A stretch of 64,000 nt of DNA, taken from a virus. The notes beneath the pieces were generated by a model, which was given only the letters and a program-made list of their open reading frames with translations, was not told the DNA's origin and did no database searches. A program made the translations under genes and the position numbers. This document shows, piece after piece, positions 28,456 to 30,680 of this stretch. Numbering within the stretch: the first letter of the stretch is position 1; the number at the start of each line of letters is the position of its first letter. The DNA lies in the IMG/VR virus record IMGVR_UViG_3300020401_001763, positions 1-64,000 of that record; one strand, written 5' to 3'.

Positions 28456-28484
28456 TTTACATTCTTGTTTTTTTATGGTATAAT
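28456..28484 (+). promoter_or_regulatory. sigma70-like promoter
   Basis: TTTACA (28456-28461), a 17-bp spacer and TATAAT (28479-28484). It starts the operon containing the HExxH protein. Confidence 0.85.
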
Positions 28485-29136: not shown

Positions 29137-29165
29137 TTTACATTTGCTTAAAAGTATGGTATAAT
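29137..29165 (+). promoter_or_regulatory. sigma70-like promoter (repeat copy 1)
   Basis: TTTACA (29137-29142), 17 bp, TATAAT (29160-29165). The block 29124-29178 aligns without gaps to 30639-30693 with 5 differences in 55. Transcription should begin near 29172, so the following 249 bases up to the ATG at 29421 form a long leader. Confidence 0.85.
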
Positions 29166-29171
29166 ATATCT

Positions 29172-29400
29172 ATAAAATGGAAAAAGAAATGAAAACAAAA
29201 GTGGAGAAAATCAATGACATAGCGAAGGTAACCGGCAGGATGTGTGATGGACAACGAGATGACGAGAAGCACATCGGGATTTACAGGTACGGAACTACCC
29301 AGGGAATCAGCGGCGGAGTATAAAACGTTCCCCTCCTTACTATGGGGCCGATAGGTCGGTAAGGAGGATGGTATTGACAACGGCCCCAAAGAATTTATAA
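29172..29400 (+). ncRNA. Candidate structured RNA or cis-regulatory leader with H-type pseudoknot
   Basis: This stretch is visibly richer in G and C than its surroundings and lies between a strong promoter and the gene at 29421. Predicted helices are: GATGTG 29239-29244 with CACATC 29270-29275; GGTA 29286-29289 with TACC 29296-29299; GGGAA 29302-29306 with TTCCC 29328-29332; CCTCCTTAC 29332-29340 with GTAAGGAGG 29359-29367 (9 bp); and TGGGGCCG 29343-29350 with CGGCCCCA 29381-29388 (8 bp). The last two interlock as an H-type pseudoknot. No known riboswitch is recognised. A 48-codon frame (29177-29323) crosses it, but its codons are unlike the phage's and it lacks a ribosome site. Confidence 0.6.
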
Positions 29401-29420: not shown

Positions 29421-29624
29421 ATGAAAATTTTAAAAGCAATCAAAGATATTAAATTTGACAATGGAGTTTCCGAGCCCATTGTCATGGCTTCTGCAGCTGG
29501 TTGGTACGTAGGTGCAATCGATAATAGTGAAGGCTTTATTCAGCCTTACGATAGATACACCGGCTACTATGCCACTTCTGGCGAAGCCGAAACAGTTTTG
29601 GACGGGCATTTTAGCAATGCCTAG
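29421..29624 (+). CDS. Small conserved phage protein downstream of structured leader
   Basis: This protein has 67 residues. GAGGAG precedes the ATG. IVMASAAGWYVGAI (about 20-33) and PYDRYTGYYATSGEAETVL (about 42-60) look like a compact beta domain common in small marine phage proteins. No function is known. Its expression may be controlled by the pseudoknot leader. The stop overlaps the following start. Confidence 0.65.
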   Translation: MKILKAIKDIKFDNGVSEPIVMASAAGWYVGAIDNSEGFIQPYDRYTGYYATSGEAETVLDGHFSNA

Positions 29625-30651: not shown

Positions 30652-30680
30652 TTTACATTTGCTCAAAAGTATGATAGAAT
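30652..30680 (+). promoter_or_regulatory. sigma70-like promoter (repeat copy 2)
   Basis: TTTACA (30652-30657), 17 bp, TAGAAT (30675-30680). It is nearly identical in sequence to the promoter block at 29124-29178 and, like it, begins at the end of a lysine-coding tail. It drives the gp33/gp32-side operon. Confidence 0.78.

Follow-up and report, generated by a model that had tools for sequence, protein, structure and literature searches.

The window, the whole stretch of DNA analysed here (64,000 nucleotides), belongs to a virus record of 68,951 bases from a T4-like phage, and homologues of gp33 and gp32 lie downstream of the locus described below. Judged by gp32, the closest isolates are Phage C48C1 and the Methylophilales phages Melnitz. 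All features given here are on the plus strand. A sigma70-type promoter with an extended −10 element, TTTACA-17-TATAAT, is located at 29137–29165, and the RNA that it drives is expected to start at about 29172. A 67-aa gene with its own Shine-Dalgarno (SD) sequence lies downstream (29421–29624). Both the promoter and the small gene with its ribosome site had been described in a first-pass annotation of this DNA, and both were found. It may be noted that near-identical extended −10 promoters occur at 28456–28484, 29137–29165, and 30652–30680, all within 2.2 kb, and that the RNA is present only at the middle one.

The elements follow each other in a fixed order: the promoter, an SD sequence with a start-stop mini-ORF, a three-way junction of helices P1, P2, and P3, a pseudoknot PK1, and finally P4 with PK2. 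The near-invariant alignment columns of a conserved GNAA (GTAA in the window, 29228–29231) link the stop codon of the mini-ORF to P1. P1 is formed by CCGGC (29232–29236) and GGCGG (29312–29316), with one G-G mismatch in the window. P2 pairs GATGTG (29239–29244) with CACATC (29270–29275). P3 consists of P3a (GATT, 29278–29281, with AATC, 29305–29308) and P3b (GGTA, 29286–29289, with TACC, 29296–29299), and its loop GGAAC (29291–29295) pairs with GTTCC (29327–29331) to make PK1. The 3′ half of the RNA, at 29332–29388, is an H-type pseudoknot. Here CCTCCTTAC (29332–29340) and GTAAGGAGG (29359–29367) form the 9 bp of P4, and the loop strand TGGGGCCG (29343–29350) pairs with the outside strand CGGCCCCA (29381–29388) to form the 8 bp of PK2, across a crossing loop ATGGTATTGACAA (29368–29380) that in the family is usually 12 nt, with the consensus ATGTNTTGANNN.

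The two interlocked helices were located exactly where the first-pass annotation had placed them. The upstream helices that it had listed as 6, 4, and 5 bp are also present, at sizes of 6, 4, and 4 bp. It had overlooked the SD with ATG-ACA-TAG, helix P1, PK1, and the start of the unit at the promoter. The folding energy of the window RNA taken singly is unremarkable (z = −0.29), and hence a comparison of relatives was needed to make the case. Unconstrained folds of the RNAs at loci L005 and L162 gave P1, P2, and P3 exactly as proposed; in the window, P2 and P3 formed, but P1, which carries the mismatch, did not.

A search with the downstream 67-aa protein returned 31 loci, among which were four near copies and one locus (L005) with a divergent RNA. 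At L005 both pseudoknot helices are swapped for other perfect helices, CGCTTTTACC/GGTAAAAGCG and GAGGGGC/GCCCCTC. A 29-base degenerate motif built from the window and L005 RNAs was found in 99 IMG/VR contigs and in one contig of a Euryarchaeota MAG; a looser version of the motif returned the same 99 contigs. A covariance model of the RNA, R1, was then built and the members were confirmed with it. R1 added L087, L309, L288, L330, and L350, at E values of 1e-17 or better. A pattern scan for the 5′ motif gave one true extra member (L350), the remaining new loci being coding coincidences. The RNA is thus borne by many uncultured marine phages: by sequence pattern and covariance model, the family comprises about 100 viral contigs besides the window, all of the same architecture. 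The RNA also occurs, together with phage-like small genes, on the contig L243 (NZLM01000077.1), which was assigned to a Euryarchaeota MAG but is probably a mis-binned phage. A comparison of L216 with L120 and L053 showed different cores in front of one and the same 3′ pseudoknot module, which suggests recombination at the P4 boundary.

Statistics for the core helices (P1, P2, P3a, P3b, and PK1) were obtained on 35 representatives. The cells of these helices were paired in 91.7% of cases, compared with 72.3% after shuffling and at most 47% after sliding, and the covariation score was 0.526, compared with 0.192 (shuffled) and at most 0.131 (slid). Changes on both sides were seen in 17 of the 24 core pairs, including all five pairs of P1; P2 was the weakest core helix, at 75.6% paired. 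In P3a, L087, L309, L288, and L330 share a compensatory change from T-A to A-T. For PK1, the P3 loop has the form GGNNN and the strand directly before P4 the form NNNCC, with matched changes (GGAAC/GTTCC, GGTAG/CTACC, GGTTG/CAACC, and GGATC/GATCC). The 35 representatives contain 28 distinct versions of P4 and 20 of PK2. In a wider set, the P4 strands of each member were 100% paired, a value that holds by construction because P4 was picked as the longest stem; the control is the pairing with the strands of other members, which was 55.5%. PK2 was present in 54 of 55 members, in 24 distinct versions with a near-constant spacer, usually of 12 nt. Compensatory changes in both pseudoknot helices, proposed earlier as a check, were seen in P4 and PK2 alike. 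Every helix of the predicted RNA covaries, and on this comparative evidence an RNA family with the stated architecture almost certainly exists.

The mini-ORF of the window is ATG ACA TAG (29214–29222), preceded by the Shine-Dalgarno sequence GGAG (29203–29206). An SD 4-mer was present in 72 of 72 distinct members, compared with 31% of shuffled leaders. All 72 also have an ATG and an in-frame stop directly 5′ of the conserved GNAA. Seven codon versions occur, all in frame: ATG ACA TAG (61 members), ATG CGG CGA TAA, ATG AGG CGA TAA, ATG TTG TAG, ATG TTA TAG, and the longer ATG GAT TAC GGA TAG and ATG AAA GAA CCA TAG. The stop codon is TAG or TAA, and TGA in none of the members. As would be expected of an RNA coupled to a leader ORF, the SD, the start, and the in-frame stop are thus conserved in all 72 members while the codons change. 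Since codons and length vary and the SD, start, and stop are kept, we infer a signature of translation. There is a slim chance that ATG…TAG is instead an untranslated RNA motif, a reading that concerns the mini-ORF only and could be combined with any of those weighed below: TAGC and GNAA are near-invariant in themselves, and ATGACATAGC could be kept as RNA, but this does not readily account for seven versions of differing codons and length that all retain ATG, SD, and in-frame stop. The distance from the stop to P1 is the same in most members, P1 beginning about 9 nt after TAG. From this spacing and the known size of the mRNA channel, the leading edge of a terminating ribosome would fall at the first pair of P1. 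A second mini-ORF, ATG-NNN-TGA, within the crossing loop was also considered; many members have it, but it is missing from L005, L162, and the frame of the window, and it was rejected. A 48-codon frame in the window, whose conservation as protein had been named as a point against an RNA, is not so conserved: stops interrupt it in all but 10 of 64 members, and the spacer lengths are spread over the three reading frames.

The RNA was compared with known families. In Rfam 15, no family scored above gathering for it, only tRNAs scoring above, and no riboswitch model matched up to E = 10, in agreement with the first impression that it resembled no known riboswitch. The latter models include those of the glutamine riboswitches (glnA and Downstream-peptide). 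BLAST of four members against 50,697 GenBank phages gave nothing significant, and covariance searches of C48C1, Melnitz, phiM12, S-RIM12, and T4 gave nothing better than E = 0.15. Identity with T4 rnaC/rnaD was rejected (R1 not significant in T4, best E 2.4; the sequences differ). A tmRNA or split tmRNA (RF00023, RF01849) was rejected for want of a tRNA-like acceptor/T-arm domain, a tag ORF, or a model match. P4 as an anti-Shine-Dalgarno or SD mimic (CCTCCTTA equals the 16S 3′ end) was likewise dropped, as other members pair differently, for example CGCTTTTACC/GGTAAAAGCG. A literature search returned no account of the RNA; as it covered few subscription papers, this absence is not a proof of novelty. 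Judged from sequence comparison, the RNA represents a family of accessory phage RNAs that is new and previously uncatalogued. Three carriers have separate alpha-type two-piece tmRNA genes (G010:2458–2778, G040:68821–69137, and G028:54363–54803), which hints that the host may belong to the Alphaproteobacteria; the hint is limited, because an alpha-type tmRNA is also found in Melnitz, a phage of OM43 (PMC9004378).

A promoter comparable to that of the window lies upstream of the RNA in 63 of 66 members. The first proteins downstream fall into 16 unrelated clusters of small proteins. For most members, 30–50 nt separate P4 from the start of the next gene, with neither promoter nor terminator between, so that the RNA is also the 5′ UTR of that gene; no intrinsic terminator was found at the 3′ end of the RNA. 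Three distant members (L243, L170, and L206) have a further promoter separating the RNA from the gene, and in L202 and L210 noncoding DNA extends for roughly 200 nt or more beyond the RNA. This noncoding stretch (L202:830–1050, and in L210, where it has an inverted repeat CACAGAGAGG...CCTCTCTGTG) is possibly a second structured RNA. All of 47 records contained the RNA exactly once, among them some of 81, 131, and 328 kb; this count is a lower bound because the records are mostly fragments.

Close relatives lack the RNA. The 67-aa gene is not specific to it, since homologues in L006–L013 stand directly behind a bare promoter. The RNA was found in 8 of 78 gp32-bearing loci, many of which are short, and nowhere in G047 (152.7 kb) or G049 (123 kb). 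In G040 (81.6 kb) it lies 26 kb away from gp32, which rules out an obligate leader of the gp33/gp32 operon, and an MPSPSE homologue near gp32 in the same record has no RNA leader (L370). Given these RNA-less relatives and bare promoters, the RNA constitutes an optional module, set between a promoter and any following gene. Hence, it is an accessory module, and not a tmRNA, a gene-specific leader, or a protein-coding sequence. At L428, a promoter 5′ of a p379 homologue leads into a leader of another kind that looks structured (GAGGAACGAGTATAAACGTGG...GACTCGC) and for which no Rfam family reached gathering; at this position, the relatives with the RNA carry other genes.

The facts shared by the family call for a function that combines ribosome loading, an intact adjacent fold, and no particular gene. 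We tentatively favour, at a little short of an even chance, an RNA that engages ribosomes and works, in part at least, in trans instead of controlling one particular gene. Ribosomes would initiate at the mini-ORF (2–4 codons) and terminate almost immediately, and the spacing alone would park the ribosome with its mRNA entry side against P1, leaving the fold undisturbed as long as a ribosome is bound to the RNA. The 3′ pseudoknot would probably block exonucleases, giving a stable RNA of about 215 nt, which most likely would act on, or be held by, ribosomes during infection, in trans. The covarying helices, the universal mini-ORF, its constant distance to P1, and the single copy per record are in favour of this, as are the unrelated downstream proteins, the second promoters, the distance in G040, and the relatives without RNA. 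Against it stand the double role of the RNA as a 5′ UTR in most members and the lack of a terminator; the single copy is not decisive, because a cis leader would not require multiple copies either. The more specific proposal, that a trans-acting RNA recruits host ribosomes by a start-stop ORF serving as a decoy and places its pseudoknotted domain at their mRNA entry side, so as to control translation during infection, is doubtful; such a ribosome-targeting RNA would, if true, be unlike any described class.

It is quite possible, if short of probable, that the RNA is instead a generic 5′ leader acting in cis, in which ribosome loading at the mini-ORF and a stable fold protect or tune the translation of whichever small operon is fused to it. 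The direct fusion to the SD of the next gene in most members and the drive of that gene from the RNA's own promoter suit this well; unrelated genes are expected of a generic effect, and the bare-promoter 67-aa genes of L006–L013 fit too. It sits poorly with the intervening promoters of L243, L170, and L206, the noncoding DNA of L202/L210, a single copy per record where similar promoters recur in the window, and near-invariant unpaired core nucleotides that exceed the needs of a stabiliser. A metabolite riboswitch, whose invariant core would bind a ligand and whose pseudoknots and mini-ORF occupancy would switch the downstream gene, is improbable: the invariant TTTACA/CARGGAA and GNAA around covarying helices form an aptamer-like pattern, but the genes behind the RNA share no function, there is neither conserved SD sequestration nor a terminator, and Rfam gave no riboswitch. 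Thus the first-pass reading of a structured, pseudoknotted marine-phage RNA outside known families, with its own promoter, stands, whereas its riboswitch for the downstream gene is not supported, in view of the 16 protein families, the one copy per record, and the promoters that intervene in some members. More improbable still is a cis-acting RNA for processive antitermination of the HK022 put or EAR kind, which would bind RNA polymerase directly downstream of the promoter; the position immediately behind a promoter, the pseudoknots, and the place 5′ of operons agree with it, but such an RNA would not call for every member to keep a mini-ORF with a ribosome site and an in-frame stop, there is one copy per record, and the other promoters of the phage are without the RNA. 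Both the riboswitch and the antitermination RNA are rated below the ribosome-engaging RNA and the generic cis leader. That the family exists and has this architecture is much more secure than any function assigned to it.

Among known systems, T4 rnaC and rnaD are likewise small untranslated RNAs of a T4-like phage and lie next to tRNA-Arg; these stable RNAs are not known to have an assigned function. The two-piece (alpha-type) tmRNA of the Melnitz type is a phage RNA too, present in a single copy, equipped with pseudoknots and a short ORF, and in Melnitz placed near gp33/gp32 like the RNA of the window (PMC9004378), but the window RNA has no tRNA-like domain, tag ORF, or match to RF01849/RF00023. 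Marine T4-like cyanophages also have candidate structured RNAs, the manA and wcaG motifs (PMC2864571); Rfam includes the two, and no match to either was obtained. A minimal ORF with an immediate stop and adjacent RNA structure is also found in leader-peptide regulators and eukaryotic start-stop uORFs (e.g., Hoxa TIE, PMC8172242). These control one linked gene, whereas the phage RNA precedes an arbitrary gene and its codons are not conserved as in a sensor.

In this family, a universal mini-ORF with a ribosome site is thus combined with a fold of two pseudoknots, and comparison gives strong support to the structure and the mini-ORF. If the RNA acts on ribosomes, it would represent a new phage route to handling host translation; if it acts in cis, it would be a portable phage expression leader.
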